From Bacteroidota bacterium (GTDB taxonomy: Bacteria > Bacteroidota > Bacteroidia > Chitinophagales > Chitinophagaceae), in assembly GCA_016868815.1 (NCBI GenBank), contig VGFQ01000002.1, forward strand, positions 124,001-188,000: a DNA stretch of 64,000 nt. The letters are read 5' to 3'. Below the pieces are notes generated by a model. The model was not told the DNA's origin and ran no database searches. It saw only the letters and a program-made list of their open reading frames with translations. Within the stretch, counting starts at the first letter, position 1; each line of letters opens with the position of its first letter. Positions 20,354 through 36,372 of the stretch are shown piece by piece. Made by a program: the position numbers and the translations under genes.

Positions 20354-20454
20354 TTCAATAGGTTCTTTGTTTATTTGATTATATTCGACTTTTCCAAGAC
20401 CTGGTAGCACATACATCACCATTGCGTTTTTTGCAAACTAAAACACTGATTGTC

Positions 20455-23400
20455 ATGCCATCTAACCCCTTCAGGGCATTTCTCTTGAAATGCATGCCTC
20501 TTTGGGTCCTGACCGCCTCGTTCTGCCTGATCGCGGCCACGCAGGCCCGATCGTCCGAGCCAACGTTAGCGTTTCGGGCAGTCTTGCCAAAAGACATCAT
20601 TGGGCATGTGACGGATGCCAAGGGAGACCCCCTCGCCGGTGCCACTGTCACGGTAAAAGGCACCAAGCGTATCGTGCTCACCGATGCCAACGGCGACTTC
20701 AACCTCAAAGGAGTCGATGATGCGTCCACCCTCGTAGTGACCTTCGCCGGCTATACTCCTCAGGAGGTCAGCGTAAAGGGCATCTCAGGCCCCCTCACGG
20801 TCCAATTCGCCGACCAGCAAAACCAGCTCGGTGAAGTGGTCGTGGTGGGTTATGGAACCCGACAAAAGAAAGACCTGACAGGCGCCGTGGCGCAGGTGAA
20901 GGCTACTCAGTTCGAGAACGAGAACCCCCGGTCGGTACAGGATATGTTGCGGGGCAACGCCCCTGGCCTCGATGTAAGCCTGAATGCTGGCCCCAAGGGC
21001 GGAGGCTCACTGCTGGTGCGAGGCCGCGGTTCACTAATCGCATCTTCGTCTCCCCTTTTGGTGGTGGACGGGGTGATCTACCAGGGTTCCCTGGATGATG
21101 TTAACCCCAACGACATCGCCACCATCGACATCCTCAAGGACGCCAGCTCGGCGGCTGTCTTCGGCGCCCGCTCTGCCAACGGAGTCATCCTCATCACCAC
21201 CAAGCGCGGCAAGAGCGGCAAGCCTCAGATTTCGGTCAACGCCAACTACAACCTGAACAAGATTGCCCAATATCCGCGGCTGCTCTCTCCGGATGAGTTC
21301 ATCAACTGGCGCACAGACGTACTCTGGAGCATGCGCGGCTTCGACTCCACCTCTCGCCCGAACATCAAATACCAGTTTACAAACCCCAGTAAGCTGCCGG
21401 CGGGCCTGAGCGTGGACCAGTGGAAAGCGCTCACAGGGGCCACCGGCGATGCTGTTGACATCTGGCTGAACCGCCTGCGCCTGACGACGGTTGAAGTGAA
21501 AAACTACAAGGATGGCAAGGTAGTCGACTGGGAAGATATTATGTACAACCGCCAGTCCAAAGGACAAGACTATACCGTCGCTATCAGCGGCAAGAAGAAC
21601 GAGCTCTCCTACTACACCTCGTTGGGATACCTTGAGAATGAGGGCTTGTCGGTAGGCGAGAAATACAAAACCTTTCGCGCCCGTGTGAATGTGGAGGCAG
21701 AAGTTGCAAAATTTCTAACCTTCGGCATGAACATGCAGTTCGCCGACCGGGATGAGAGTCCATGGAATGTCACCCTAGGTGATATGATACGTACGACGCC
21801 GTATGGTCAGCTCTACAATGACGATGGGGTAACGCTTCGAACGAGCACCAACGACGACCCGGGTAACAACCAAAACCCTTTCCTCAACATCACCTATCGT
21901 AAACGCCTGCAGAAGACGATGAACCTCTTCGGCTCGTTTTATGTTAAGGGTAAGCTCCCGTTCGGATTTTTCTACCAGACAAACTTCACCCCGCGCCTCG
22001 ACTGGTATAAAAACTACAATCATATTTCGTCCGCCCACCCGTTAGTGGGGGTCCGCGGAGGCGTCACGGTGCGCGAAGACAACAATCAGTACCAGTGGCA
22101 GCTCGACAACATCATCGGCTGGGCGAAGAACTTTGGCAAGCACAGCTTTGAAGTCACCTCCCTGATCAACGCCGAGAAATATCAGAGCTGGTACCAGCGC
22201 GTCAATGCGGAGAGCTTCTCACCCAATGACAACCTTGGATACAACAATATCGCCGCCGCCCGTACAGTCGTAATCACCAACGATGACCAGTACGCGACGG
22301 CCGACGCCCTCATGGGTCGCCTCAACTACAACTACTCCGGAAAATATCTGCTGACCGTGACGGGACGCCGCGACGGCTACTCCGCCTTCGGTCTCGAGAA
22401 CCGCCGCGCCTTCTTCCCCTCGGCCGCCCTTGGCTGGGTGTTCACGGACGAAAAGTTTTTGACTGGCATCACACGATTCATTGAGTATGGTAAGCTGCGC
22501 GTCTCCTATGGCGAGAACGGCAACCGTGAGATAGGTCGTTATGCTGCCCTGGCCAATCTGGATGCTGGCAGCTATGAGTACATCACTCCCGGGGGTACAC
22601 GTTACAGTGTAGGACGTGTCCAGGCCGCCAACATGGCCAACCCCAAACTCCGCTGGGAGCGCAACCGCTCGATGAACATCGGAGTCGACTTCACCATCCT
22701 CAAGGGTAACCTCAGCGGCTCGATCGACTGGTACGACCGTTCCACCAACGACCTGCTGGTCAACCGTACCTTGCCCGTCATGACCGGTTTTGCCAGCGTA
22801 ATCGCCAATCTAGGCCAAGTCGACAACCGCGGTTTCGAGGTAATGCTGAACAGCATCAACATGAAGCGGAATAACCTCAGCTGGCGCTCCAATGTGACCT
22901 TCTGGACCAACCAGAACAAGATCGTGCGGCTCTATGGTCCCGTGCCCGTCATCGACGCCACCGGTAAGATCACCGGCTATGTCGAGAAGAACGACGAAGC
23001 CAATCGCTGGTTCATCGGCAGGCAGATCAGCGATATCTACGATTACAAGGTGGCCGGCGTATGGCAGATTGCCGATGATGCCAAAGCCAGATCCTACGGA
23101 TTCACGCCCGGCGACTTCCGCCTCGAAGACCTGAATAATGATGGCAAGTACACGGCTATCGACGATAGGACCTTCGTCGGACAGACGACCCCAAAGTTCT
23201 CCTTCAACGTCCGCAACGAATTCACCCTCTTCCGCCACTGGGATGTCTCCTTCTCCCTCTACGGACGTGTGGGCCTGGTGAGCATCTTTAACGAGGCCAG
23301 AAACGTAGACCTGTTCTACGACCGTTCGCAATTCTACCGCAGGCCCTACTGGACACCCACTAATCCAATCAACGACTACGCCAAGATGATGTCGGCCGCC

Positions 23401-23634
23401 GGCGGCACCGTCGCCTTCAACGTTTACCGAAATTCCTCGTTTGTCCGACTCAATAATATCAGTGTAGCCTATACCGTGCCGAAAGAAGTTCTGGACAAAT
23501 ACAAGTTCCAAAGCATCAAGCTTTATATAAACGTCCAGAATGGGATTGTCTTCTCCCCATGGAATTACTTCGATCCGGAGAACAAAGGTCTCACCCCTAC
23601 CATTGTCAACTTTGGCCTTAACACAAGCCTTTAA
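20455..23634 (+). CDS. SusC/RagA-family TonB-linked outer-membrane protein
   Basis: The TonB-dependent outer-membrane channel of a SusC/SusD glycan importer. After a signal peptide comes a carboxypeptidase-regulatory-like domain (IIGHVTDAKGDPLAGATVTV), then the plug with the family signature VVVGYGTRQKKDLTGAV and DILKDASSAAVFGARSANGV, then a long beta-barrel; the ending NFGLNTSL is a standard barrel C-terminus. Product of about 1059 residues when started at ATG 20455; an in-frame TTG at 20422 would add 11 residues before the signal and looks spurious. The susD-like gene follows 29 bp later. Its location after uxuA points to oligosaccharides containing uronic acid, an inference from context. 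Confidence 0.95.
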   Translation: MPSNPFRAFLLKCMPLWVLTASFCLIAATQARSSEPTLAFRAVLPKDIIGHVTDAKGDPLAGATVTVKGTKRIVLTDANGDFNLKGVDDASTLVVTFAGYTPQEVSVKGISGPLTVQFADQQNQLGEVVVVGYGTRQKKDLTGAVAQVKATQFENENPRSVQDMLRGNAPGLDVSLNAGPKGGGSLLVRGRGSLIASSSPLLVVDGVIYQGSLDDVNPNDIATIDILKDASSAAVFGARSANGVILITTKRGKSGKPQISVNANYNLNKIAQYPRLLSPDEFINWRTDVLWSMRGFDSTSRPNIKYQFTNPSKLPAGLSVDQWKALTGATGDAVDIWLNRLRLTTVEVKNYKDGKVVDWEDIMYNRQSKGQDYTVAISGKKNELSYYTSLGYLENEGLSVGEKYKTFRARVNVEAEVAKFLTFGMNMQFADRDESPWNVTLGDMIRTTPYGQLYNDDGVTLRTSTNDDPGNNQNPFLNITYRKRLQKTMNLFGSFYVKGKLPFGFFYQTNFTPRLDWYKNYNHISSAHPLVGVRGGVTVREDNNQYQWQLDNIIGWAKNFGKHSFEVTSLINAEKYQSWYQRVNAESFSPNDNLGYNNIAAARTVVITNDDQYATADALMGRLNYNYSGKYLLTVTGRRDGYSAFGLENRRAFFPSAALGWVFTDEKFLTGITRFIEYGKLRVSYGENGNREIGRYAALANLDAGSYEYITPGGTRYSVGRVQAANMANPKLRWERNRSMNIGVDFTILKGNLSGSIDWYDRSTNDLLVNRTLPVMTGFASVIANLGQVDNRGFEVMLNSINMKRNNLSWRSNVTFWTNQNKIVRLYGPVPVIDATGKITGYVEKNDEANRWFIGRQISDIYDYKVAGVWQIADDAKARSYGFTPGDFRLEDLNNDGKYTAIDDRTFVGQTTPKFSFNVRNEFTLFRHWDVSFSLYGRVGLVSIFNEARNVDLFYDRSQFYRRPYWTPTNPINDYAKMMSAAGGTVAFNVYRNSSFVRLNNISVAYTVPKEVLDKYKFQSIKLYINVQNGIVFSPWNYFDPENKGLTPTIVNFGLNTSL

Positions 23635-23663
23635 CCGAAACCAGTCCTACAAATCGAAAGCAT

Positions 23664-25508
23664 ATGAAAATGACACCCCATACACTTCGCATAAATCGGG
23701 TGCTGGCATTGACCTTGGCCGCAGCCTTGGCCTTGCCCGCTTGCAAGGAGTCCTGGCTGACGCCAAGACCCCTCTCTATCTTCAGCCCGGAGAACACCCT
23801 CACGACCCAAGTGGGCTTCGAGGCAGCCCTGGCCTCCTGTGCCAACAACATGCGCCAGGAGTTTTATGGAGACGGTGCCCCCATGATCACGGAAAACATC
23901 TTCTCGGAGGTGGCTGTCGAGGGCACGACCGACAAGTTCGGACCTGCCGTCAACATGAACATCCTGATCACGCCAGACGCGAACCTCAACAGCGGAGACT
24001 TCAACCGCATAGGCTGGTATTGGGAGCGTGGCTGGCTCGGCATCCGACTCGCCAACACCATCATCTCTCGTCTGCCCAAGGCCACCTTCTCCCAGGCCAC
24101 CAAGGACGTGATCAAAGGCAAGGCCTATTTTTATCGCGCCTACCAATACTACCGTCTGATACACCAGTTCGGCGACATCCCCACCACCTTTAAAGAGATC
24201 TCCGAGCCCAAACTTGACTTCAAGACCGTGAAGCGCGATGCCATCCTCCAGCGCATCAAACTGGAACTCGACACAGCTGCTACATTCGTGCCTTGGGTGC
24301 AGAACAAGGGAGACGTGAACAAAGGCGCTGTATATCACCTACTCGCCAAAGTATGCCTCTCCATGGGGCTTTTTGATGAGGCCATCAACGCCACTTCTGC
24401 CGTGATCAATAACGGGGCTTACCGATTGGTCACCAGCCGCTTTGGCTCCGAGCTGAGTGATGCCCGGAAGAATGTGATCTGGGATCTGCACCGTCCACCG
24501 AACAAGGCCGCTTCTGCCAATACAGAGACGCTCTTCCTGGTGACAGATCGTTATGGTGATCAGAATGCCACCACCAGCGGTATCAATACCATGCGCCAGG
24601 CAGTCCCCTTCTTCTCTGTTAATACCATCCTGACCCCCGACGGTCGTGTCGGCATGACCCCCAACTTCGGGGTCGAATTAGACATGTGCTCCTTATATGG
24701 ACGCGGCATCGGCCGCTGCCGCGCCACCGGATATTCTACGCGCGACATCTGGGATGACACCAAAGACCTTCGTCGCGACACCGCCTCCGGCAACTGGATC
24801 ATGATGAATATGCTGGTGTACAACAACCCTGCCATCAAAGGCGTCTCTCCCTGGTACGGGCGCCGGCTGCAGCTATTCACCAACAGTGGAGCCCTTTCCG
24901 TTTCTACCGGAGACACCATCCGTACCTGGTACGATTGGCCACACTATAAACTCTTTATCCCAGACCAGATCCGTACGCCCTATCAGGGTGGCAACACCGA
25001 CTGGTATGTCTTCCGCCTGGCGGAGACCTACCTGCTGCGGGCAGAAGCCTACTGGTGGAAGAACGACATCGTCAAAGCTACGGCCGACGTGAATGCTGTC
25101 CGGACGCGGGCCCGCTGCTCGCCCTATTTGGCCGGTGTGGTCGATATCGGCACCATCCTCGACGAGCGCGCTCGGGAACTCTATTATGAAGAGCCACGGA
25201 AGACCGAGCTCACCCGGGTAGCCTTCACCTTTGCCAAAACGGGCAAAACGTATCTTGGCAAGACGTACAATGCAGCCAACTTCCACACGTCTAACTTCTG
25301 GTACGACCGGGTGATGGACAAGAACGTCTTCTACAAACGCAACGTGAAGAACGTACGGGGCGATGCCTATACCATCAGCCCCTACCACTCCCTCTGGCCC
25401 ATCCCACGCACAGCCATCCTGGCCAACCCCAACGGTTGGATCAATCAGAACCTTGGATATTCCGGCAGTGAGACCAACCAGCCTGCGTCGGACAAGATCT
25501 TCGAATAA
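23664..25508 (+). CDS. SusD/RagB-family surface lipoprotein
   Basis: The substrate-binding lid lipoprotein that pairs with the SusC channel just upstream. The N-terminal signal ends in the lipobox LPAC (Cys at residue 27), so the protein is lipidated and probably surface-exposed. The body shows the SusD helical-repeat architecture: YYRLIHQFGDIPTTFKE near residue 165, KGAVYHLLAKVCLSMGLFDEAIN near 220, and near the C-terminus the RLAETYLLRAEAYWWKND and LYYEEPRKTELTR segments common to RagB/SusD proteins. At 614 residues it is a long member of the family. Confidence 0.94.
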   Translation: MKMTPHTLRINRVLALTLAAALALPACKESWLTPRPLSIFSPENTLTTQVGFEAALASCANNMRQEFYGDGAPMITENIFSEVAVEGTTDKFGPAVNMNILITPDANLNSGDFNRIGWYWERGWLGIRLANTIISRLPKATFSQATKDVIKGKAYFYRAYQYYRLIHQFGDIPTTFKEISEPKLDFKTVKRDAILQRIKLELDTAATFVPWVQNKGDVNKGAVYHLLAKVCLSMGLFDEAINATSAVINNGAYRLVTSRFGSELSDARKNVIWDLHRPPNKAASANTETLFLVTDRYGDQNATTSGINTMRQAVPFFSVNTILTPDGRVGMTPNFGVELDMCSLYGRGIGRCRATGYSTRDIWDDTKDLRRDTASGNWIMMNMLVYNNPAIKGVSPWYGRRLQLFTNSGALSVSTGDTIRTWYDWPHYKLFIPDQIRTPYQGGNTDWYVFRLAETYLLRAEAYWWKNDIVKATADVNAVRTRARCSPYLAGVVDIGTILDERARELYYEEPRKTELTRVAFTFAKTGKTYLGKTYNAANFHTSNFWYDRVMDKNVFYKRNVKNVRGDAYTISPYHSLWPIPRTAILANPNGWINQNLGYSGSETNQPASDKIFE

Positions 25509-25886
25509 TTTGCTGCATCCCATGCAGCTATCTCAAACAAGCACCCTGGCGATGAGCTGGGGTGCTTGCTTTCAGGGCCTGCAACATCGAGATGCTCATG
25601 CGCTGCTTTGGCTACCAGACCTCGGCATCCCTATCAATATTTCATACACCCATGGACAGTAGGACTATACTGCCGCCTTAACCCGGGAAGAAATCACCTA
25701 GTTTGCCAACAACTAAAACGCTGCAGCAACAGTTGCTCCTGTTACTGCCAACCTCCCTCCCCAGCCCCTCCACTAAAATAAAAATGGGCTGGAAACCCCC
25801 GCCTTACCAGTATATTCCAACCGGTGGTCGTCCTTTCAGAAATCCTTTCTGCTGGCCTGAATTACATGTACAAAAGTAGCTACCTC
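25509..25886. other. 378-bp convergent intergenic region
   Basis: This gap between the susD-like gene and the convergent fusion gene holds one clear hairpin (25538-25568). No open frame in it has a recognisable product; the longest short frames are uncharacterised and lack a plausible ribosome-binding context. Confidence 0.6.
25538..25568 (+). terminator. Hairpin terminator after the uxuA-SusC/D operon
   Basis: CAAGCACCC at 25538-25546 and GGGTGCTTG at 25560-25568 are exact reverse complements around a 13-base loop, 29 bp after the susD-like stop. The tail is pyrimidine-rich (CTTTC) but not a long T run. Confidence 0.6.
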
Positions 25887-27977
25887 TTAACCCTCGCCTT
25901 TTCTCACGTGCAGCCCTTTTGTTTTTGTGAAGGCCCGCAGGCCCTGGTGGGAAAGTGTGGCACCAAAGCCTGAGTGCTTACGGCCTGACCATGGAAGCGC
26001 TGCACTCACACGGTCGCAACAGTTAATGTAGCCCGTGCCAGTATCAAGCTCTGTGAGGATGCGTTCGCCACGGGAGTTGTCAGATGTATAGACAGCAGCG
26101 GTGAGGCCATAGTCAGTGTCCTGCATCAATCGTACCGCCTGTTCGTCGTCTGTCACTTTTTGGATGCCGATGATTGGGCCAAACGACTCTTCGCGCATCA
26201 TCCACATGGAGTTGTCTGCATCTGCGATGACCGTCGGTTCAAAATAATAACCTTTGCCTCCAGCCCGCTTTCCTCCGCATAACAAGCGGCCGCCCTTGGA
26301 CAGTGCGTCTGCAACCTGTGCTTCGAGCACTTGAAGATTGTCTTTCCGTGCCAGCGGCCCGAGGTAGATGCCTTCTTCCAACGGGTCTCCCATACGCCAG
26401 GTACGCACCTCCTTCACGAAGGCCTCCAGGTAGGCCTCATAGACCTTCTCATGAACATAAATGCGTTCCACCGCGCAGCAGCTTTGCCCGTTGTTATAGA
26501 AAGCGCCATCGGCCGTGGCAGCCGCGACAGCCGATATATCCGCCACGTCATCGGCCACATACAACGGATCCTTGCCACCAAGCTCGCACTGGCAGACGGC
26601 CATCTGTGAGGCCACCGATGCATAGACATGTTTCCCGGTGCGGTAGGAGCCTGTAAAAAACCAGCCGTCAAACGACAGGTGCAGCAAGGCCTCGCCTATC
26701 TCGCCGGCGCCAACAGCCGTCTGGAAGACATCCTCCGGAATGCCAGAGGCCTTTAGCAGACGGTCGATCTGCAGTCCCGTCAGCGAGGCATGCTCTGACG
26801 GCTTGTACAATACGGCATTACCTGCCAATAGCGCGGGGATGAATACATTCACGCCGACCAAATAGGGATAGTTCCAGGCCGAGATGTTGCAGACCAGGCC
26901 CAGGGGTTCGTAGCGGATGCGTTCTTCCATTGTTTCATTGGTCGACATTACTTCGTCCGACAGATATCTCTGTGCATGATTAAGCATCCAGGCAATGCGC
27001 GTTCGCGCGCCTTCAATCTCATTGCGTGACTGCTGGAGGGGTTTCCCAACCTCGGCCGTGAGGTCGGCGGCCAAGGCTTCCTTCTCCTCCGTCAGTAGAT
27101 CCCGAAAGCGGGAGAGGATGTTCCTCCGTTCTTCCAGGCTCTTCGACGCCCAGTGAGGCTGTGCTTTTCGCAGCCTCATAGCCTTCTGTTCTAGGGTCTG
27201 TGGCGTGTCGGTCACCAGGCTGGCGATGACTTCTTCTGTGGCGGGATTGACAATCTCCATGCGGCGGTGGCTTTGTTGGATGACGGATTCCAGAAATCGT
27301 TGTCTGACGCGATAAGAGAGAGGGTTTTCCTGCTTGTCGGCCATCCGCTCTGGATGCCATTGCACACAGAGCAGGAAAGGCTTTTGACTGCCGTCTTCGG
27401 CTTCCAGTGCTTCGGGAATGCCGTCTTCCGACCAGGCAGTGACTCGCAGCCCATGTCCGACCCTCACGGGGTCGATGGCCTGGTGGTGGGCGCTGTTGAC
27501 GACCCCCTCTATACACCCACAGGCTTCTTGCAGCAGGCTGCCGGGCAGGAGCTGCACGAGGTGTCGCTTGTCGGTCTCGGATGCTTTCCGATGGAGGGCG
27601 TTGCCGGCGGGCCCCAGGTCGGGCAGCATGCTCCCCCCTTCGAGGATATTGACGAGCTGCATTCCGCGGCATATGCCCAGCACCGGTAAGCTGCGGGATT
27701 TCGCATATGCATATGCCTGTGCTTCGAAGGCGTCGCGCTCCGGCTCGAAGGCTTCCGGCATGTTCGGGTAGCGCTCCAGCCCTCCATAGCAGGCGGGTTG
27801 CATATCGACCCCGCCAGATAGCACTAGCGCGTCGCAGCGGTGCAGCAGGTGTATGTTGGGCTGCAGGAAGGACAGCTCGACCACCTCGAAGTCTTCTTCC
27901 AGGCTTTTCTCGTTGAACCAGGCGGGATAGTAGGCGTAGTTGGTGCGGGAAAATGTAATGCCTATGCGTTTTTTCAT
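25887..27977 (-). CDS. Fused gamma-glutamyl amide hydrolase (PuuD-like) and aldehyde dehydrogenase
   Basis: A 696-residue bifunctional protein. Residues 1-238 are a class I glutamine-amidotransferase-like hydrolase of the PuuD/peptidase C26 type: LSGGVD at 53-58, nucleophile Cys103 in GICRGMQ, and His208 and Glu210 in QWHPE. From Met240 an aldehyde dehydrogenase begins as a stand-alone one would (MEIVNPATEEVIASL). It has the cofactor-binding ISAWNYPYLVG, general base Glu465 in CELGGKD and catalytic Cys500 in NNGQSCC. The join is a short linker with no internal ribosome-binding site visible before the Met240 codon at 27260. It is last in the operon and would oxidise a gamma-glutamyl aldehyde and then release glutamate from the resulting gamma-glutamyl amino acid. 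PuuC- and PuuD-like activities are normally separate proteins. Confidence 0.9.
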   Translation of the reverse strand: MKKRIGITFSRTNYAYYPAWFNEKSLEEDFEVVELSFLQPNIHLLHRCDALVLSGGVDMQPACYGGLERYPNMPEAFEPERDAFEAQAYAYAKSRSLPVLGICRGMQLVNILEGGSMLPDLGPAGNALHRKASETDKRHLVQLLPGSLLQEACGCIEGVVNSAHHQAIDPVRVGHGLRVTAWSEDGIPEALEAEDGSQKPFLLCVQWHPERMADKQENPLSYRVRQRFLESVIQQSHRRMEIVNPATEEVIASLVTDTPQTLEQKAMRLRKAQPHWASKSLEERRNILSRFRDLLTEEKEALAADLTAEVGKPLQQSRNEIEGARTRIAWMLNHAQRYLSDEVMSTNETMEERIRYEPLGLVCNISAWNYPYLVGVNVFIPALLAGNAVLYKPSEHASLTGLQIDRLLKASGIPEDVFQTAVGAGEIGEALLHLSFDGWFFTGSYRTGKHVYASVASQMAVCQCELGGKDPLYVADDVADISAVAAATADGAFYNNGQSCCAVERIYVHEKVYEAYLEAFVKEVRTWRMGDPLEEGIYLGPLARKDNLQVLEAQVADALSKGGRLLCGGKRAGGKGYYFEPTVIADADNSMWMMREESFGPIIGIQKVTDDEQAVRLMQDTDYGLTAAVYTSDNSRGERILTELDTGTGYINCCDRVSAALPWSGRKHSGFGATLSHQGLRAFTKTKGLHVRKGEG

Positions 27978-27996
27978 CGAGGTGGCGGAGATTTAC

Positions 27997-29133
27997 CTAG
28001 AGGGCTTCTGCGTAGAGGCGGCGGAAGTCGTTGCGGTTGACGGGCCTGGGGTTGTTGGGATGTGCGAAGTCGGCCTCTGCCAGTCCGGCCAGCGTGTCGA
28101 GGTATTCTTCCCGGACGCCTATGTCTTGCAGCCGGGTGGGGATGCCGATGCGCTGGTTGAGTTCGAAGAGGTACTGCACCACTCCCTCACCGTCTTCTTT
28201 GGTGAGGTCGAGGCGTCGGGCGATCTGCCGAAACTTCTCTTCGCAGCTGGGGATGTTGAAGCGCATACCGTAGGGCAGGTTGACGGCATTGGCAAGCCCG
28301 TGGTGGGTGTCGAGCAGGGAGGAGAGGGGATGGGCGAGTGAGTGTACGACGCCCAGCCCTTTCTGGAAGGCGACGGCCCCCATCAGCGATGCCATCAGCA
28401 TCTGGCTGCGTGATTCGAGGTCGGGCGCTGCGACGGCCTTTTCGATGGACTGTGCGATGCGCGCGATGCCTTCGAGGGCGATGCCTTCGCAGAGCGGGTG
28501 CGACATCTTCGCCAGGTAGGCTTCTATGTTATGGGTGAAAGCGTCCATGCCAGTCGCGGCCGTGACGGCAGGTGGCAGGTCCATCGTGAGGAGCGGGTCG
28601 GCGAAGACGATGCGCGCCAGCAGCTTTGGGGAGAAGAGGATCTTCTTCTGGTGGGTGGCATCGTCGGCAATGATGGCACTACGGCCCACCTCGCTGCCTG
28701 TACCGGCCGTGGTGGGGATGGTGATGAAGGGTGGGACTTCATTGGTGACATATACGTCGCCGCCTATGAGGTCATCGTATGCGAATAGGTCTTCGCGGTG
28801 GTGGGCACGCAGTGCAATGGCGCGGGCCACATCCATCGCCGCACCGCCGCCGATGCCGATGATGGCATTGCAGCGCCCTTCGTCGTATGCGTCTGTCCCG
28901 CGGTAGACGTCTGACTTGACGGGGTTCTTATGGATGTCATGAAAGGCGATCGGTTGTATGCCTCTGGCATCGAGGGCTGCCAGCATCTTCCGGAAGAAGG
29001 GGAGGGTAGCGACTGTCGGGTCGGTGGCCACCAGCGGCCTTTGCAGGCCATACTTCGAGAGGTAGCCACCGAGTTCTTCACTCGCGCCGGCCCCAAAACG
29101 AATGGTCGTAGGGAAGTTATATTGCAGGATCAT
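27997..29133 (-). CDS. Iron-type (group III) alcohol dehydrogenase
   Basis: A 378-residue NAD(P)-dependent alcohol dehydrogenase of the iron-containing family. Cofactor-binding features are the GAGASEELG segment near residue 14 and GIGGGAAMDVAR near 93; the metal site is formed by the DAFTHNIEAYLAKMSHP helix around residue 195 and by His residues in GVVHSLAHPLSSLLDTHHG near 255-275. TIPTTAGTGSEVGRSAII is the usual family block. It begins 33 bp after the glutamine-synthetase-like gene and ends 19 bp before the fusion gene. In this setting the likely substrate is the hydroxyl end of a gamma-glutamylated amino alcohol, yielding the aldehyde for the next enzyme; that is inferred. Confidence 0.92.
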   Translation of the reverse strand: MILQYNFPTTIRFGAGASEELGGYLSKYGLQRPLVATDPTVATLPFFRKMLAALDARGIQPIAFHDIHKNPVKSDVYRGTDAYDEGRCNAIIGIGGGAAMDVARAIALRAHHREDLFAYDDLIGGDVYVTNEVPPFITIPTTAGTGSEVGRSAIIADDATHQKKILFSPKLLARIVFADPLLTMDLPPAVTAATGMDAFTHNIEAYLAKMSHPLCEGIALEGIARIAQSIEKAVAAPDLESRSQMLMASLMGAVAFQKGLGVVHSLAHPLSSLLDTHHGLANAVNLPYGMRFNIPSCEEKFRQIARRLDLTKEDGEGVVQYLFELNQRIGIPTRLQDIGVREEYLDTLAGLAEADFAHPNNPRPVNRNDFRRLYAEAL

Positions 29134-29166
29134 AGAAGGAGGTGCAGGTCGTGGTGGGGGAAGTTG

Positions 29167-30537
29167 TCAGATGATCTCAAAATAACGTTTGTATTCCCAG
29201 TCTGTGACAGATTTTAGGTGCTGCCGCCATTCCCAGTCGCGTGTAATGGTGAAGTGATCGGTGAAGGCGTCGCCGAACAGCTCGCAGGCGACGGCAGAAG
29301 TACGCATCTGTGTGGTGGCCTCTGCCAGCGTATGCGGGAGGGTGCCATGGTCATATACGCGGTAGCCGTTGCCTTCTACGGGTGGCTGCAGGCGAAGCTG
29401 GTGGCGGATGCCATAGAGGCCAGATGCTAGGGCCGCGGCCATCGCGAGGTAGGGGTTGGCGTCGGCGCCGACGACCCTGGTCTCGAGGCGGCACGACTGG
29501 CTTCCGCTGTTTAGTACACGCAGGGCCACGGTCCGGTTGTCGACCCCCCACGTCAGGGTCGTAGGCGCCCAGGCGCCCTCCACCAGACGTTTGTAGCTGT
29601 TGATGGTCGGGGCGTACATCGGCAGGATATGTGGCAGGCAGTGCAGCTGGCCGGCTATGTATTGCCTCGCCAGGGTGCTGAGCCGTTGGGGATCCTGCGA
29701 TTCAAAGAAAAGGTTGTGGTTCTGGCCTGCATCCCAAAGGCTTTGGTGCACATGTCCTCCACAGCCTGGGAGTTGCTCATGGATCTTCGCCATGAAGGTT
29801 GCCATGATGCCATGGCGATATGCGATCTCTTTGACACCCGTCTTGAAAAGCACGGCCCTGTCGGCCGCCTCCAACACTTCTGCATGGGCAATGGCTGCCT
29901 CATAGGTTCCAGGGCCTGTCTCGGTATGCAGTCCTTCAATGGGTACGCCAAAGGCAGTGAGTTGGTCGAAGAGGTCCCGCATGAAGGGATTCTTCAGCGT
30001 GCTGCGTAGGATGGAGTACCCGAACATGCCGGGGCTGAGCGGGGTCAGGTTCTGGTAATGCTTTTCCCTGGCTGTGGCGGGTGTCTCTTGGAAGTTGAAC
30101 CATTCGAATTCCTGTGCGAAGACGGCCCGGAAGCCTGCTTCAAGGGCCTGGTCGCGGATACGCTTCAGCAGCTGTCGCGGGCAGACAGCGGCGGGGCTGC
30201 CATCTGCTGCCATCAGCTCCCCCAGCAGGAAGGGAAGGTCGTCTTCCCAGGGGATGGCGCGCAAGGTGGCCGCGTCGAGTCGCGCGGGGCTGTCAGGGAA
30301 GCCGCTATGCCAGCCGGTATAGTGTCCCCGGTCGTAGAGGGCATCTGCGGCATCCCATCCGAAGATGACATCGCAGAAAGAGCTTCCTTTCTCCGCCATG
30401 GAGCGCAGCTTCTCCAGCGAGACGTATTTCCCACGGAGAATGCCGTCGATGTCGGCGTAGGCAATCTTTGCCTTCCGGGAGGGATGGGCTGACGCTCTTT
30501 CTAGGGCGGTGTCGAAGGGATGTCCGTCGGTATGCAT
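29167..30537 (-). CDS. Glutamine-synthetase-like gamma-glutamyl-amine ligase
   Basis: A 456-residue enzyme of the glutamine synthetase superfamily, closer in layout to PuuA/GlnA4/IpuC-type gamma-glutamyl-amide synthetases than to nitrogen-assimilating GlnA. Active-site blocks are FAQEFEWF near residue 142, ETGPGTYEAAIAHAE near 205 (metal-binding glutamates), GCGGHVHQSL near 263 (ATP/glutamate-binding His), NSYKRLVEGAWAP near 325 and ETRVVGADANPYLA near 364. The adenylylation-site tyrosine region of classical GlnA is not recognisable. It lies 21 bp after an ethanolamine-type permease gene and 33 bp before an alcohol dehydrogenase gene, which argues for ATP-driven gamma-glutamylation of an amino alcohol such as ethanolamine. 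Substrate choice cannot be read from sequence. Confidence 0.9.
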   Translation of the reverse strand: MHTDGHPFDTALERASAHPSRKAKIAYADIDGILRGKYVSLEKLRSMAEKGSSFCDVIFGWDAADALYDRGHYTGWHSGFPDSPARLDAATLRAIPWEDDLPFLLGELMAADGSPAAVCPRQLLKRIRDQALEAGFRAVFAQEFEWFNFQETPATAREKHYQNLTPLSPGMFGYSILRSTLKNPFMRDLFDQLTAFGVPIEGLHTETGPGTYEAAIAHAEVLEAADRAVLFKTGVKEIAYRHGIMATFMAKIHEQLPGCGGHVHQSLWDAGQNHNLFFESQDPQRLSTLARQYIAGQLHCLPHILPMYAPTINSYKRLVEGAWAPTTLTWGVDNRTVALRVLNSGSQSCRLETRVVGADANPYLAMAAALASGLYGIRHQLRLQPPVEGNGYRVYDHGTLPHTLAEATTQMRTSAVACELFGDAFTDHFTITRDWEWRQHLKSVTDWEYKRYFEII

Positions 30538-30558
30538 AAGTGGGTTTGGGATGGTGGG

Positions 30559-31884
30559 TCAAAGGGATATGCGCCCCCTGCGGGTCCACAGGAAGGCTAG
30601 GAAAGATACCGCGAGGATGGTGAGATAGGCGAGGGTGGGCCCTTGTGCCGACAGGCAGACCGCGACGAGTGATATCATCGCGATCAGGAACGCAGTGGCA
30701 GGTGCGATCGGGAACAGGGGTGCCCGGAAGGGTCTTGCGAGGGCTGGCGCGTAGAGCCTGAGCCGAATCATGCAGACCATGGCGATCGCGTAGAGCGTGA
30801 GTGCGCCCAGGACGGATATGGTGATGATTTCTCCTGTCCGGCCCGTCAGCAGCGCAGCGATGCCGATGCACATGTTGATCAGCAAGGCCTTGGAGGGGGT
30901 ACGGAAGCGAGGGTGTATATATCCCAGCACGCGTGGGCCGAACCCTGCCCGGCCGAATTCATAGGTCGACCGGCCAGCTGCCAGGATGAGGCCATGGAAG
31001 GAAGCCACCAGTCCGAAAATTCCAACGGTGACCAGCAAGTGAAATAGCGGGTGTCCCGCCCCCACCACCTTTCCCAGGGCCAGAGGCAGGGGTGAGTCGG
31101 AGGTCGAGCCGTCGGCCTTATATACGATGGCCTCCCATCCTGCCACGCCCGTAGCTGCGGTGAAGGTTAGTAGGCAGAGCACCACCAGGGTGAGGATGGC
31201 CGAGCCGAAGCCGATGCGGATGGTCCGTTGTGGCTCGATGGCTTCTTCTGCCACGTTGGCGACTCCTTCGATGCCCAGAAAGAACCAGATGGCAAAGGGG
31301 AGTGCGGCAAAGACGCCAGCCACCCCATTGGGGAAGGCATTCTGCTGCAGGTGCTCCCATCTGGCTGCGGGTAAGACGATGCCGGCGAATAGCAGCAGCT
31401 CCGCCACTGCCAGGATGGTGATGAGGAGTTCGAAGACTGCCGCCGTCCGTACACCGATGATGTTGAGGCCTGTGAAGACAAGGTAGGCTGCTAAGGCGAT
31501 CGCAGCCACCGGTATCTGTGGCAGGAAGAGGTTGAAGTAGGCACCGATGGAGAGGGCGATGGCAGGCGGGGCAAAAATGAATTCTATATGCTGTGCCATG
31601 CCGGCGATGAAAGCCCATCGGGGCCCCAGGGCCTGGTGGGCGTAGTCGAAGACGCCGCCCGCCTGTGGGATCGCACAGGCTAGCTCGGCATAGCTGAAGG
31701 TGAAGGCCAGGTACATAAGGATGATGATACCCGTGGCGATGGCCAGCCCCAGTGTGCCGCCTTTTTCCAGCCCGAGGTTCCATCCGAAGTACATGCCGGA
31801 AATCACATATCCGGTGCCCAGCCCCCAAAGCATCAATGGCGTCAAGGTGCGCTTCAGTCCGGCGGATGTTGATTGTTTCAGCAT
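30559..31884 (-). CDS. APC-family amine permease, ethanolamine-permease type
   Basis: A 441-residue integral membrane transporter with about twelve hydrophobic segments, of the amino acid-polyamine-organocation superfamily. The first helix GLGTGYVISGMYFGWNLGLEKGG holds the glycine-rich unwound substrate-binding region. GMAQHIEFIFAPPAIALSIGAY around residue 95 closely resembles the segment I know from ethanolamine permeases (Eat/EutP-like) and differs from arginine or putrescine transporters. LGIEGVANVAEEAIEPQRT is the APC block following helix six. It is co-directional with the catabolic genes at 21-bp spacing, so it most likely imports their substrate. Confidence 0.87.
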   Translation of the reverse strand: MLKQSTSAGLKRTLTPLMLWGLGTGYVISGMYFGWNLGLEKGGTLGLAIATGIIILMYLAFTFSYAELACAIPQAGGVFDYAHQALGPRWAFIAGMAQHIEFIFAPPAIALSIGAYFNLFLPQIPVAAIALAAYLVFTGLNIIGVRTAAVFELLITILAVAELLLFAGIVLPAARWEHLQQNAFPNGVAGVFAALPFAIWFFLGIEGVANVAEEAIEPQRTIRIGFGSAILTLVVLCLLTFTAATGVAGWEAIVYKADGSTSDSPLPLALGKVVGAGHPLFHLLVTVGIFGLVASFHGLILAAGRSTYEFGRAGFGPRVLGYIHPRFRTPSKALLINMCIGIAALLTGRTGEIITISVLGALTLYAIAMVCMIRLRLYAPALARPFRAPLFPIAPATAFLIAMISLVAVCLSAQGPTLAYLTILAVSFLAFLWTRRGRISL

Positions 31885-31906
31885 ATGGGTCGTTTGATTT
31901 TGCCTG

Positions 31907-32446
31907 CTATAATTCTTCTGCTGCCCTGCCGTCGAGTTTTGCTTTCAGCAGCCGCGTATGGTGCTCGGCATGCAACCAGGAGAAGATGATCATCTCCCGT
32001 AGGGTCGACTTGCCCATTGCCGGATGCGGCAGCAGATAGCTGTCCAGGGTCCGCTCAGAGAGGCATGCCATCTGCTTGCAGAGCGCTTCTGCGATGCGGG
32101 CGTGTTTTTTCACGAGGGCGTCGCGCTCCTCCACCTTCACCTTGCCGGGGTGGTACAGGCGGGGTGCTTTAAAACCCTTGCTGAGGGCCTTGCGGTATTT
32201 CTCTTTGAGTTCTGCCTCTGAGCGCCCTTTCCGGTTGGGTTTGCCAAAGAGCAGCCGCAGTAGCGGCAGCGGTAGCAACAACGCCAGCTGCACTGCGCGC
32301 AGTGTTTTGGTAAGATGCTTCAAGTCTTGCCCTGCAGACCATTTGGAGCCATGTGGCCGCTCGAAATCCGCATCTGAAAGCCCCGCTACCAGTCGGTTGA
32401 ATGCATCTACGGCCCGTCGAATGTTCTCTTGAACTATCTGATGCAT
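31907..32446 (-). CDS. DinB-like (four-helix) protein
   Basis: A 179-residue soluble protein with the DinB/YfiT four-helix pattern: an N-terminal helix ENIRRAVDAFNRLVAGLSDADFERP, then WSAGQDLKHLTK with a His that in relatives binds metal, and a C-terminal LREMIIFSWLHAEHHTRLLKAKL with two further His residues. Members include thiol-dependent transferases and many uncharacterised proteins. It lies 22 bp before the permease gene and may be the first gene of the amino-alcohol operon; a direct role there is not evident. Confidence 0.72.
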   Translation of the reverse strand: MHQIVQENIRRAVDAFNRLVAGLSDADFERPHGSKWSAGQDLKHLTKTLRAVQLALLLPLPLLRLLFGKPNRKGRSEAELKEKYRKALSKGFKAPRLYHPGKVKVEERDALVKKHARIAEALCKQMACLSERTLDSYLLPHPAMGKSTLREMIIFSWLHAEHHTRLLKAKLDGRAAEEL

Positions 32447-32517
32447 ATCCGATGTGCTTTGTATTTATTTAAAGAGATTCGTAGGTGTGGGGCAATTCAT
32501 GCAGATGATGGTGCTGT

Positions 32518-34158
32518 TCAGGGCCCTTCCCATATCACCGTGCTGATCCGGTTGAACCAGGTCGGGTACATGGCTGTGTGCAGTGCTTCGACTTCATTGC
32601 GCCGAATCTTCAGCGTGGGGGTCATCATTCCGTTGGCAATGGACCAGTCGTGCTGGGTGACCACGATCTTCTGCACGCGCTCGTAACTGTCGAGTGTGGT
32701 GTTGATTGTTGCCAGCATCTGTGAGAGGCGCTGGATCAACCTGTCTTTGTCGCCCGCCTTGGCGGCCTCTGAGAGATTCACCAGTGCGATAGGCTGTGGG
32801 ATGCCCATGCCGACGACGCAGACCTGTTCGATGTCGGGACTGGCCATCAGCTTCAGTTCTATAGGCCCCGGGGAGATGTACTTGCCTTTGTCTGTCTTGA
32901 ACTGGTCTTTGATGCGTCCCGTGATGAATAGGTAGCCCTCTGCGTCGTATTGTCCTTTGTCGCCAGTGCGGAGAAACCCGTCCGTATCGAAGGCTTCTTG
33001 CGTCAATGCGGGCTCTTTGTAATATCCGGTGAAGTTGCCCGGACTTCTGACGCAGATTTCACCTTCGTCGGTAATCTTCACTTCCAGTCCCGGCAAGGGT
33101 TTTCCGACGGAGCCGATGCGGTTGGCTTCGGCGGTGTTGAAGTGTGCGTAGACGCTGTCTTCCGACATGCCATAGGCTTGTAGGATCTGGATGCCCAGCC
33201 GCTGGTACCAACATAGCAGATCGGGGGCTATGGGGGCGGCGGCGCTGAGGATCACGCGCGCGCGCGACAGTCCGAGTTTACGTTTGATGGCCATTCTCAG
33301 CAGATGGCTAAGCAAGGGGATGGACAGCAGCGTGTCGAGGCGCTGCTGGGGGAATTTCTTGAGGATTGTCTCTTGGAACTTGGACCATATGCGGGGCACG
33401 GCAAAAAAAGCATGTGGCTGGACGGAGGCTAGGTCTTCAGCGAATGTCTGCAGGGTCTCCGAGAAGGAGGCGGTGCCGCCTGTGAAAAGAATATTCATCT
33501 CGACGGCCATCCTTTCTGCCACATGGCTCAGCGGCAGGTAGGAGAACATCGACGGTTGGCGGGGTGCATCCAGTATCGGGGCGACCTTTTCAAAGACTTT
33601 TGCGAAGGTACAGGCTGTGTGCATGACGCCTTTGGGTCGGCCTGTGGTGCCGGAGGTGTATACGATGGTAAGCGTCTGGTCGCACTGCCAGTCATGCGGT
33701 CGGGCGATGGGTTCATGGGTCTCCAGTATCCTCTCCCAGCTGTTTTCTGCGGAGATGCCATACATGGAAAAGGCAATGCGGACGAGGGAGAGGGGGATGC
33801 CTTGTTCCTGATCGGGGTAGTCGTCGAGCTTTCCGACGAAGATGGCCTTTGCATCACTGTGTTCTAGAATGGTTCGGATGGTGCCTGAGGTCAGCGTGGG
33901 GTAGAGGGGTACCGAGACGCAGCCTGCCATCATGATGGCGATATCGGCCATGATCCAGTGTGCGCAATTTTTTGACAGGATGGCGACATGGTCGCCGGGC
34001 TCCAGGTTGCCGGCGCGGATTGCGGCCGCCACGCGGCGGCACTCATCTCCTGCCTGCGCCCATGTCCAGGTCACCCATCGCCTTCCAATGGGCTGTCGGA
34101 GGAAGATGCGGTCAGGCTGTTGGCGTTCCCAGCGGAGGAAGTATTCGAGTGGAGTCAT
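32518..34158 (-). CDS. AMP-dependent long-chain acyl-CoA synthetase
   Basis: A 546-residue adenylate-forming ligase of the FadD/long-chain fatty-acid CoA ligase type. The P-loop-like motif YTSGTTGRPKGVMHT is near residue 170, the aromatic YLPLSHVAERM block near 208, YGMSEDSV near 337, the hinge FLRTGDKGQYDAEGYLFITGRIKDQFKT near 395-420 and the C-terminal lysine region shortly after. Such enzymes activate fatty acids with ATP and CoA. It lies 71 bp upstream of the DinB-like gene and 56 bp after the exported protein gene on the same strand, so co-transcription is possible but not required. Length is normal and no signal peptide is seen. Confidence 0.92.
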   Translation of the reverse strand: MTPLEYFLRWERQQPDRIFLRQPIGRRWVTWTWAQAGDECRRVAAAIRAGNLEPGDHVAILSKNCAHWIMADIAIMMAGCVSVPLYPTLTSGTIRTILEHSDAKAIFVGKLDDYPDQEQGIPLSLVRIAFSMYGISAENSWERILETHEPIARPHDWQCDQTLTIVYTSGTTGRPKGVMHTACTFAKVFEKVAPILDAPRQPSMFSYLPLSHVAERMAVEMNILFTGGTASFSETLQTFAEDLASVQPHAFFAVPRIWSKFQETILKKFPQQRLDTLLSIPLLSHLLRMAIKRKLGLSRARVILSAAAPIAPDLLCWYQRLGIQILQAYGMSEDSVYAHFNTAEANRIGSVGKPLPGLEVKITDEGEICVRSPGNFTGYYKEPALTQEAFDTDGFLRTGDKGQYDAEGYLFITGRIKDQFKTDKGKYISPGPIELKLMASPDIEQVCVVGMGIPQPIALVNLSEAAKAGDKDRLIQRLSQMLATINTTLDSYERVQKIVVTQHDWSIANGMMTPTLKIRRNEVEALHTAMYPTWFNRISTVIWEGP

Positions 34159-34214
34159 CGGCGGTAGTTATGTGTTCACCTTACGCGGGCTTAGATGGCA
34201 GGACTTGTTGGTCG

Positions 34215-35441
34215 TTAGAGGTGGATGGCCTCTAGTCCCACCCCCAGCAGCTGACGGGCGATTCGGTCAATCGATGCTTTGGGTCCTTTGACGTGCAGGG
34301 TCCGGTGCTTGTGTACGAGCGTCTGCCCAGGGGCCAGTGCCGCAGCGGGGGAGGAGCTTTCGAGTTCATAGAATTTGCCCATCTGTTTTCCATCGATGGG
34401 GCCGTCGTTATAGGCATTGACGGCATCTCCGCGGAACGGGTCGTCCTGTTGTTTCCATTGAGAGTTGACATAGTCGCGGGCACCTGTGGGCAGGGTAAAC
34501 TGCGCAATGGTTAGCACGCCGCTGGCGCTGTCGTAGCTGGCGGCTCGGGGGAGTGCCCTTCCAGGCGGGATGCCTATTTTACCCCGATGGTTGCCGTCGG
34601 CGGCCATGAAGATATGTGCATCGGTGACGCGCAGCCTGTCGCTCGGTACTTTCCCGAAGTAGTCGTCTGTGAGGGTTGGGCCGCTGCCATGGGCACCGCC
34701 CTTCCATGGGATGAGGATGGTCGTCGAAGGGCTGGCACGCAGCATGCTGAGGATCCAGATGGAGAGCATGCCCGACTGCTTCTCCCAGGTGTTGCTACCG
34801 GTGTTGGTGATCTGGTTATCGGTCTCAAAGCCGACAGCTTCTATGTCTTCGGCGGTACTGCTGAGGTGCGATAGCACCTGGTCGCGGGGCAGCAGGGTCA
34901 CCGTGCGATGCACTGTCAGCTGGAAGGAAGTGCCTGACTGGTTTGTCAGCTGCATGTCTTTCTCAAACGATGCGGATCCTTTGTCTTTGCGCACGAGTTT
35001 GAAAGGGATGGTGTCGATGTAGGCCGGTACCTGCCAGTGTTCGAAGCTGAAGTCGGCTCCCGGCGGAAAGTAGATGGAAAACTGGCCGCCCTCTGGTCCC
35101 AGCCAGAAGCGCTCTTCTCCGCCGAAGGCATTCATGTGGGGTGTGAACGTTCCGGAAGCGATGAGTGCATGGTTGATCCAGCCGAAGGAGGTGCCTGTAT
35201 CACCGGTGGCGGTACTGGTCATCACCCGTCCCTGGTATGCAGGCAAGACGATGAGCTTGGCCTTGCCGGCTTCATCTTCGAGGGTGATGGCATCGGGGTG
35301 GTATTGGTTTAGGAAGCGGGCGTCGTATCCAAAACTGCCAGGCAGGGTATCTTGGTTGGGCCTGCCCGTATTTCCCTGCCCACAGGCCAAGGCTGCCAGG
35401 GCTCCTAGTGCTGCCATGCCCATATCCATCCTTCTTCGCAT
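34215..35441 (-). CDS. Exported lipoprotein-like protein, DUF6786/DUF4380-type
   Basis: A 408-residue protein with a short hydrophobic leader ending LAALACGQG, which looks like a lipobox with Cys at residue 20, so it may be lipid-anchored. The body is rich in beta-strands and contains VLPAYQGRVMTSTATGDTG, FGWINHALI and FWLGPEGGQFSIYFPPG. These segments recall the Bacteroidota families DUF6786 and DUF4380, whose fold is like aldose-1-epimerase/galactose mutarotase. I recognise the type from memory and cannot confirm which family. It diverges from the SDR-ROK-SIS operon, so it may belong functionally to that sugar cluster rather than to the ligase downstream. Confidence 0.65.
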   Translation of the reverse strand: MRRRMDMGMAALGALAALACGQGNTGRPNQDTLPGSFGYDARFLNQYHPDAITLEDEAGKAKLIVLPAYQGRVMTSTATGDTGTSFGWINHALIASGTFTPHMNAFGGEERFWLGPEGGQFSIYFPPGADFSFEHWQVPAYIDTIPFKLVRKDKGSASFEKDMQLTNQSGTSFQLTVHRTVTLLPRDQVLSHLSSTAEDIEAVGFETDNQITNTGSNTWEKQSGMLSIWILSMLRASPSTTILIPWKGGAHGSGPTLTDDYFGKVPSDRLRVTDAHIFMAADGNHRGKIGIPPGRALPRAASYDSASGVLTIAQFTLPTGARDYVNSQWKQQDDPFRGDAVNAYNDGPIDGKQMGKFYELESSSPAAALAPGQTLVHKHRTLHVKGPKASIDRIARQLLGVGLEAIHL

Positions 35442-35583
35442 TTTTTTCCTTCAAAGTTTTTTCGATCCTGTCTAGGGCTTTCCTATCAGTGAGATGGGGC
35501 TTTAATAGGAGGTATAAGATACGATAAAATCAGAAACAGCCCTTTGCCTGCCAGCTCTCCCTTTGATCTGCTATCTTAGGGGA

Positions 35584-36372
35584 ATGATCTTGCAGGGTAA
35601 GCGCATCGTCGTGATCGGCGGCACGTCTGGCATTGGGCTGTCGGCAGCAGAGGCTTTTGTGCGTGCAGGGGCTTCTGTCGTCGTTACGGGTCGCCATCCG
35701 CAGAAGGTGTCGGCGGCGGCTGCCCGGCTGGGCCCTTCGGCTTGCGCCCTTGCATCTGATGCCTGTACAGAAGGCAGTGCCGAGCAGGCCATAGAGGCGT
35801 GCATGCATACTTTTTCTGGCTTCGATGGATTGTATCACGTGGCGGGCGGCAGCGGGCGGCGGCATGGCGATGGTCCCTTGCATGAGCTGAGCCTGGAAGG
35901 ATGGCAGCGGACCTTCGATATAAATCTTACGGCTTTGATGCTATCTAACCGGGCAGCGGTGCGTGCTTTTCGGCAACAAGGTCATGGCGGCTCCATCCTC
36001 AACATGGGATCTGTACTGGGCTTCTCACCCTCGCCGCGCTATTTCTCGACGCATGCCTATGCAGCGGCCAAGGCTTCTGCCGTGGGATTCACCAGGGCCA
36101 TTGCCGCACACTATGCGGCCGATGGCATCCGTGTGAATCTGATCGCACCGGCCTTGGTGGAGACGCCCATGTCGGTGCGCGCCCAGGAGGATGCTGCTAT
36201 CATGGACTTCATTCGTACCAAGCAGCCACTTGAGGGTGGCCGCATCGGCATTCCTTCTGACCTCGACGGGGCAGCAGTATTCTTTCTTTCAGACGCCTCC
36301 CGGTATGCCACGGGGCAGGTGCTGAGGGTTGATGGTGGTTGGGAGCTCTCGGAGGGGCAGTACCATGATTGA
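35584..36372 (+). CDS. SDR-family oxidoreductase
   Basis: A 262-residue short-chain dehydrogenase/reductase. The dinucleotide loop GGTSGIGLSAAEAF starts near residue 12, the N-A-G equivalent reads HVAGGSG near 90, and the active-site pair is in YAAAKAS near residue 159. The C-terminal GQVLRVDGGWELS is standard. I begin at ATG 35584, five bases after a purine-rich stretch; the TTG at 35563 gives an odd MICYLRG extension. Its stop overlaps the start of the ROK gene by 8 bp, which implies translational coupling. The substrate is presumably a sugar or polyol of the operon. Confidence 0.87.
   Translation: MILQGKRIVVIGGTSGIGLSAAEAFVRAGASVVVTGRHPQKVSAAAARLGPSACALASDACTEGSAEQAIEACMHTFSGFDGLYHVAGGSGRRHGDGPLHELSLEGWQRTFDINLTALMLSNRAAVRAFRQQGHGGSILNMGSVLGFSPSPRYFSTHAYAAAKASAVGFTRAIAAHYAADGIRVNLIAPALVETPMSVRAQEDAAIMDFIRTKQPLEGGRIGIPSDLDGAAVFFLSDASRYATGQVLRVDGGWELSEGQYHD

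Follow-up and report, generated by a model that had tools for sequence, protein, structure and literature searches.

A Bacteroidota operon predicted to use ethanolamine by gamma-glutamylation, without cobalamin or a microcompartment

Ethanolamine serves as a headgroup in a phospholipid common in bacterial membranes, and genomes are usually examined for its recycling by way of the eutBC genes. Can a Bacteroidota genome use it by another route? The question is raised by a window of 64,000 nucleotides from contig VGFQ01000002.1 (assembly GCA_016868815.1, Chitinophagaceae), the whole stretch of DNA analyzed here, in which four tandem minus-strand open frames follow one another with intergenic gaps of 21, 33, and 19 bp. 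They encode an Eat-family permease, a glutamine synthetase (GS)-like ligase, an iron-containing alcohol dehydrogenase (Fe-ADH), and a protein that joins a C26 hydrolase to an aldehyde dehydrogenase (ALDH). A first-pass annotation had described four minus-strand genes separated by 19-33 bp, one of which combined a PuuD-like hydrolase with an ALDH; NCBIfam and Pfam profile searches, used to name the proteins, confirmed this layout and placed PF07722 ahead of PF00171 in a single frame. The operon is very likely to provide a cobalamin-independent, microcompartment-free route for ethanolamine utilization via gamma-glutamylation.

The individual reactions, their substrate, their order, and the co-transcription of the genes are deduced from the gene set. 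The Eat-type permease would import ethanolamine, and the ligase would use ATP to join it to the gamma-carboxyl group of glutamate, giving gamma-glutamylethanolamide. Fe-ADH would oxidize the alcohol of this compound to a glutamylated aldehyde, which the ALDH domain would convert to gamma-glutamylglycine. Hydrolysis by the C26 domain would then release glutamate and glycine, so that the glutamate is returned and the nitrogen and carbon of glycine are gained. The residues presumed to be catalytic in each fold are present: D197, H201, H264, and H278 of Fe-ADH in an alignment with FucO, C103, H208, and E210 of the hydrolase domain in an alignment with PuuD, and E465 and C500 of the ALDH domain in an alignment with PuuC. 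The source genome (2.85 Mb, 33 contigs, 92% complete) gave no match to EutB or to a bacterial microcompartment (BMC) shell protein, in agreement with the earlier observation that ammonia-lyase and microcompartment genes are absent. Its second PF00120 match is partial and lies in a 742-aa frame.

The ligase departs from GS at the site that binds ammonium. Aligned with E. coli GlnA and PuuA, it retains the GS residues for metal, glutamate, and ATP, the D50 column being ambiguous, while E327 of the ammonium site is replaced by W323 and Y179 by F172, both in the window ligase and in all 46 other aligned Bacteroidota rows of its clade. E327 is likewise missing from GlnA4, which has F there, and from PauA7, which has W, and the altered pocket has been read in these proteins as suited to a larger amine (PMC6529630, in part). 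With the W at the E327 place and only 224.1 bits against the type I glutamine synthetase model TIGR00653 (cut-off 429.15), an assignment as GlnA was rejected. The predicted structure (pLDDT 83) has the GS fold and matches GS structures including 11zs and 5dm3, the latter being Csal_0679.

Ligase phylogeny places the window protein with neither PuuA nor GlnA. In a 62-row tree, which omits S. coelicolor GlnA4 and includes one row (L052) whose open frame is broken, the Bacteroidota ligases group together in a clade (SH-aLRT 96). A proteobacterial clade that includes Photobacterium and Burkholderia lies next to it, the two joined at SH-aLRT 99. The Paracoccus ligases, Allomeiothermus, and L041, a ligase from an operon with a short-chain dehydrogenase (SDR), make up a separate etoX-type clade of five rows (SH-aLRT 97); the window ligase falls apart from these five, in a 54-row group (SH-aLRT 99). 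Membership of the Csal_0679/etoX-type subfamily was rejected on these separate clades, with L143 (best PDB match 5dm3) and L147 standing in for 5dm3 in the tree. Of the earlier description, a GS-like ligase with PuuA/GlnA4-type blocks, the GS-like part holds (PF00120), but the protein is not closely related to PuuA, GlnA, or the ligase of the Chromohalobacter/Paracoccus type in this tree without GlnA4. The ligase, permease, and two-context ligase trees are all quick trees with SH-aLRT support only and long outgroup branches.

The permease adds weight to ethanolamine as the substrate. It scores 397.4 bits against TIGR00908, 'ethanolamine permease' (cut-off 381.75), which upholds its initial description as an ethanolamine-permease-type APC transporter. 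The same cut-off is passed by all five further Bacteroidota permeases compared with the model (L041, 457 bits; L084, 439; L136, 435; L043, 426; L040, 401) and by that of Photobacterium L142. A phylum sample of 198 Bacteroidota genomes, each 90% complete or more and the source genome included, contains ten with a TIGR00908 permease. Six of the ten have the contiguous Fe-ADH operon (the source genome and L149-L153), and these are exactly the six sampled genomes with Fe-ADH at E <= 1e-100. Two others (G122 and G216; loci L169 and L170) have the order ligase-SDR-ALDH-GATase-permease, and one (G157; L172:7851-11604) has the permease directly before EutB, followed by EutC. G157 additionally has the ligase in another context (L155).

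In the permease tree the SDR-operon proteins branch from within those of the Fe-ADH operons, and the EutBC-linked permease, 42% identical to that of the window, lies outside the Fe-ADH-operon permeases. The SDR-operon ligases (L169, L170) are only 35% like the window ligase. The L041 ligase, by comparison, is 65-69% like the L169/L170 ligases and has 11zs and 5dm3 as its best PDB matches; Csal_0678, whose locus number adjoins Csal_0679, is an ethanolamine-binding protein according to the portion of PMC10132767 consulted. SDR-type glutamylation operons were seen in three Bacteroidota genomes of the same order (L169:3300-8901, L170:3473-8991, L041:1338-7979); in L041 the permease comes first, and a Xre/MbcA/ParS-type antitoxin gene and a RES-domain gene sit between ligase and SDR. 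Bacteroidota thus appear, by sequence comparison, to combine one transporter lineage with two different glutamylation modules. Glutamylation modules occur in eight of the 198 sampled genomes and EutB in five. A broader proposal, which hangs in the balance, is that the permease family is a fixed entry gene behind which Fe-ADH glutamylation, SDR glutamylation with a different ligase, and EutBC are exchanged; that glutamylation is at least as common as EutB and forms a cobalamin-free sink for membrane ethanolamine; and that the fused last two steps may pass gamma-glutamylglycine on directly.

The five modules of the operon, counting the hydrolase and ALDH separately, are conserved well beyond the window. 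The named genomes scanned were those of the best 80 of 582 confirmed relatives, a selection biased to close ones and nearly all labeled Bacteroidota (Chitinophagaceae, Sphingobacteriaceae, Cytophagales, Emticicia, and others). Sixty of these loci could be judged, as their sequence reaches 1.5 kb or more beyond the ligase on the upstream side and 3.8 kb or more on the downstream side; in 20 the flanks were too short. Here and in the other locus comparisons presence of a module means a tblastn match of the window protein, a measure that would miss a very distant replacement. All five modules are found in 44 of the 60 judgeable loci, two loci lack the hydrolase, and one lacks the permease. The recurrence of the five-module order in 44 of 60 argues that it is not due to chance, and it bears out the expectation that the same gene order would be found in other Bacteroidota. 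Within the window's branch, the modules are kept together across several families of the phylum.

Two further surveys delimit the unit. Gene-call clustering of 101 sequences gave the ligase in all 101, the permease and Fe-ADH in 78 each, hydrolase/ALDH in 72, and no other neighboring family in more than nine, so the core of the operon is sharply bounded; the 101 sequences do not equal 101 genomes, since L061, L062, L064, L072, and L087 look duplicated within the set. At E <= 1e-30 the ligase was matched in 28 of 60 genomes, source genome included, and in the neighborhoods of 20 of these 28 Fe-ADH adjoins the ligase in 16. The other four are a contig ending in the ligase (L050), a ligase alone (L037), a ligase with permease (L039), and the SDR variant (L041). 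One copy of the operon, its ligase 70% identical to that of the window, lies on a contig labeled Beijerinckiaceae (L078, alphaproteobacterial), which may be a mis-binned contig or a transfer. Emticicia sp. CRIBPO (L096) also has the full operon. In L095, L105, and L120 (Emticicia and a metagenome-assembled genome of Cytophagaceae) a ligase without the operon is flanked by a GntP-family permease on one side and a gene of weak ATP-grasp likeness on the other, the neighbor families being named from L095.

A single frame encodes hydrolase and ALDH in the window and likewise in L044, L045, L048, L052, L069, L075, L077, and L080, with L087 and L072 looking like duplicates of L045 and L048. Fe-ADH and ALDH are both present in 47 judgeable named loci, of which five have the fusion, 40 have hydrolase and ALDH unfused, and two are without a hydrolase match; the unfused group includes two loci with irregular frames (L074, L081) and one whose pair lies about 5 kb away (L104). 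In unfused loci, such as that of Pedobacter frigoris (L084), the gene order, hydrolase then ALDH, equals the domain order of the fusion. The structure prediction for the fused protein (pLDDT 88, pTM 0.72) is confident within its parts. The fusion fits two consecutive steps with hydrolysis last, and it offers a ready test of coupling between them.

Fe-ADH is linked to GS-like genes outside the phylum as well. In plasmid searches that listed 30 of 96, 25 of 99, 30 of 64, and 40 of 191 records (Fe-ADH accounting for 25 of 99 and 40 of 191), all 12 listed records with an Fe-ADH of at least 253 bits have a GS-like gene match within about 6 kb, L142, L143, and L147 among them. The Paracoccus L147 Fe-ADH is among the best plasmid matches listed for that of the window. 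In an Fe-ADH tree rooted on FucO, EutG falls outside (100/98).

Good support for the breakdown of a glutamylated amino alcohol, probably ethanolamine, comes from the permease family, from its exchange between EutBC and a second glutamylation module, from the ligase residues, and from the five-module order. In this respect the overall interpretation of the first-pass annotation stands, with its account of ligase kinship, its comparison with the ipu genes, and its range of known groups corrected. Three lines point to ethanolamine as the probable substrate: the permease model, the neighbors of the permease, and likeness to described operons. The same chemistry could act on another short amino alcohol, such as L-alaninol, 1-amino-2-propanol, 3-aminopropanol, or serinol, with glutamate and the corresponding amino acid or ketone as products. 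Fe-ADH and ALDH suit any primary amino alcohol, and the window ligase is 40% identical to Paenarthrobacter IpuC (L057), with which it has the W at the E327 place in common. Such a substrate is nevertheless rather improbable, given that the permease family precedes EutBC in L172 and adjoins a module with a ligase of the 11zs/5dm3 kind, and that no cytochrome P450 was found among the seven minus-strand genes covered by the Pfam family scans at the locus.

Several observations weigh against ethanolamine glutamylation by this gene set. Among the 60 judgeable named loci, the ligase stands without any partner in ten and with only the permease beside it in three. No NCBIfam equivalog model is passed by the ligase, Fe-ADH, or ALDH (for ALDH, among the best 25 of 50 models); the best model for Fe-ADH is 4-hydroxybutyrate dehydrogenase, at 341 bits below a cut-off of 500. 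A single exclusive clade of Bacteroidota and GS-linked proteobacterial Fe-ADHs is not borne out by the Fe-ADH tree, and the Roseateles Fe-ADH (L145), a long branch among the GS-linked proteobacterial ones, has no GS annotated in the stretch fetched. TIGR00908 is a family name that involves no test on these proteins, and one of the ten permease genomes, G248 (L171), has no operon-module match and no ethanolamine gene among six scanned neighbors. Two of the five EutB genomes also carry the ligase. In six loci (L034, L036, L047, L085, L098, L133) the ADH and ALDH genes adjoin and tblastn gave no hydrolase match, and another enzyme must therefore hydrolyze there. In the proteobacterial sister clade of the ligase, some loci (L055, L058) have aminotransferases and spermidine/putrescine-type ABC transporters. 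Lastly, the ligase was found at E <= 1e-100 in 26 of the 198 sampled genomes, and among the 21 of these examined (the source genome and 20 others) it stands in the operon in six and among different neighbors in 15.

This last count would also suit a ligase that mainly makes a gamma-glutamyl compound for some other purpose, as its relatives in that other context may, its neighbors in the window being a loosely linked oxidation set. That explanation is improbable: the commoner second context stands in its favor, but the five modules stay together in the window's branch across several Bacteroidota families, and 17 of 18 second-context ligases fall in a separate clade (SH-aLRT 81), L154 lying outside. 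As the ligase clade has at least two contexts, the ethanolamine reading of the operon must rest on the gene set and not on the ligase, which was rejected as a stand-alone marker of the pathway on the six of 21 genomes. All 15 non-operon genomes have, in the same stretch as the ligase, a member of a family of about 347 aa and a HAD-IIA-type phosphatase, a label that rests on two members; among 30 loci compared, the former occurs in 18 and the latter in 17. These loci are L154-L168, L126:7728-12168, L137, and L138:7956-12035. Three scanned members of the 347-aa family gave no Pfam or NCBIfam match, and no PDB profile matched (best E 0.78); by eye, and without tool support, the stretches FVDWNIGNF and SRWDYDWF recall aminoglycoside/choline-kinase loops. 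This second context is possibly an undescribed pathway. Related ligases in Alphaproteobacteria (L055, L058, L148) lie beside aminotransferases and N,N-dimethylformamidase-like genes, that of L148 also beside an APC permease, with N-formylglutamate amidohydrolases in L055 and L148; these probably glutamylate some other amine.

Puu-like gamma-glutamylation of a diamine of the putrescine type is scarcely credible: the ligase, ALDH, and C26 hydrolase share fold families with PuuA, PuuC, and PuuD, but the seven scanned genes contain no FAD oxidase family of the PuuB kind, with an alcohol dehydrogenase instead, the ligase reaches 215.6 bits against the gamma-glutamylputrescine synthetase model NF045547 (cut-off 650), and the permease is far from PuuP in the tree.

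Three more minus-strand genes lie close upstream of the permease (Table 1), and the operon transcript may therefore start further upstream. The DinB-like gene ends 22 bp from the permease, the acyl-CoA-ligase-like gene follows 71 bp further upstream, and the DUF6786 gene another 56 bp beyond. In the close relatives L033 and L050 the first two genes occupy the same position relative to the permease; these two are perhaps co-transcribed with the operon and probably lie outside the pathway. A motif search of positions 25500-36000, with what is presumed to be a Bacteroidota-type promoter consensus, gave no match between the operon genes and a single match, at 25870-25878, downstream of the operon. 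On the plus strand (20422-25508), a gene read from its translation as SusC-like (outer membrane) and a SusD-family gene (PF07980) face the 3' end of the operon.

Table 1. Coordinates of the operon genes, the domains of the fused protein, and the upstream genes (positions in the window)
Feature	Position	Strand	Family or score
Ethanolamine-permease-type APC transporter (Eat family), 441 aa	30559..31884	-	TIGR00908
GS-like ligase, 456 aa, predicted gamma-glutamylethanolamide synthetase	29167..30537	-	PF00120, 328.6 bits
Iron-containing alcohol dehydrogenase, 378 aa, predicted gamma-glutamylethanolamide dehydrogenase	27997..29133	-	PF00465/PF25137
Fused protein, 696 aa: N-terminal C26 hydrolase and C-terminal aldehyde dehydrogenase	25887..27977	-	PF07722, 138.2 bits; PF00171, 425.7 bits
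Hydrolase domain, residues ~1-235, predicted gamma-glutamylglycine hydrolase	27273..27977	-	PF07722 (residues 43-210)
ALDH domain, residues ~236-696, predicted gamma-glutamyl-aminoacetaldehyde dehydrogenase	25890..27272	-	PF00171 (residues 235-687)
DinB-like protein, 179 aa	31907..32446	-	PF12867
AMP-binding acyl-CoA-ligase-like (FadD-like) protein, 546 aa	32518..34158	-	PF00501
DUF6786 gene	within 31907-35441	-	

The route itself is already known in Streptomyces and Proteobacteria. It had been cited as a proposal for Streptomyces, where it is indeed described, and more groups belong on the list: Phaeobacter, Chromohalobacter, and Agrobacterium, as far as PMC10132767 was drawn on. For Bacteroidota, the titles and abstracts listed in searches of the open literature, a scope that leaves most subscription papers outside, gave no description of it, in line with the first impression that it is undescribed in the phylum. 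No word beginning with 'bacteroid' occurs in the main text of PMC10132767, of PMC6529630, or of PMC9397018; the excerpt used of the last names Flavobacterium among genera with reported ethanolamine use and gives no route. If the reading of the operon is true, surveys based on eutBC overlook a cobalamin-free route in many environmental Bacteroidota (labeled as Chitinophagaceae, as Pedobacter and its relatives, and as Cytophagales). The operon is held by named strains of Pedobacter, Chitinophaga, and Niabella, and permease swapping together with the phylum sample makes the question of the substrate testable.

Compared with known systems, the operon is a variant, by virtue of its Eat permease, its distinct ligase clade, its PuuD-like hydrolase, and the fusion of the latter to ALDH. 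The Puu pathway of E. coli (L139), rejected here on the NF045547 score and the missing FAD oxidase family, is alike in the fold families of ligase, ALDH, and hydrolase; unlike the window it includes PuuB, an oxidase, and lacks an alcohol dehydrogenase, and PuuA lies outside the window clade on a long branch. The Eut pathway, with EutBC and a microcompartment, shares the presumed substrate and, in L172, the permease family; it was rejected on the lack of EutB and BMC matches in the source genome. The Ipu pathway resembles the window in its GS-like ligase. In Ipu the alcohol arises by a P450 step and is oxidized after glutamate has been split off, and the cluster includes an alanine dehydrogenase, as the text used from PMC6776027 has it. 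The Ipu pathway was rejected for the window, where the seven scanned genes include no P450, and the likeness to the Pseudomonas ipu genes first suggested, which stands for the ligase and its W, is weaker than stated on account of the P450 step and the early removal of glutamate.

Closer counterparts are found among the glutamylation systems for ethanolamine. The GlnA4 cluster of Streptomyces coelicolor is alike in its GS-like ligase without the ammonium-site glutamate, its ALDH, its amidotransferase-type gene, and, in some species, a permease; it has a short-chain dehydrogenase and, compared by its description in the relevant part of PMC6529630, is nearer in content to the SDR operons L169 and L170 than to the window. 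Ethanolamine gamma-glutamylation in Phaeobacter sp. MED193 is reported to involve the TRAP transporter EtoX, a ligase, ALDH, ADH, and an amidohydrolase, with Chromohalobacter salexigens and Agrobacterium also cited (PMC10132767, same portion). The Phaeobacter/Chromohalobacter operon has the ligase, alcohol dehydrogenase, aldehyde dehydrogenase, and gamma-glutamylglycine hydrolase in common with the window, which differs in having an Eat permease in place of TRAP and a ligase of another clade; no RpiR regulator, a feature of the Phaeobacter operon, occurs among the seven scanned genes. Paracoccus denitrificans L147 has the order RpiR, amidohydrolase, three TRAP genes, GS, ALDH, and alcohol dehydrogenase, which equals that of the Phaeobacter operon in the same source; its alcohol dehydrogenase is an Fe-ADH, as in the window, and it has an N-formylglutamate-amidohydrolase gene where the window has a C26 hydrolase fused to ALDH. 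The five functions seen in the window are all present in Photobacterium L142, where a GATase-type gene accompanies the Eat permease, ligase, ALDH, and Fe-ADH.

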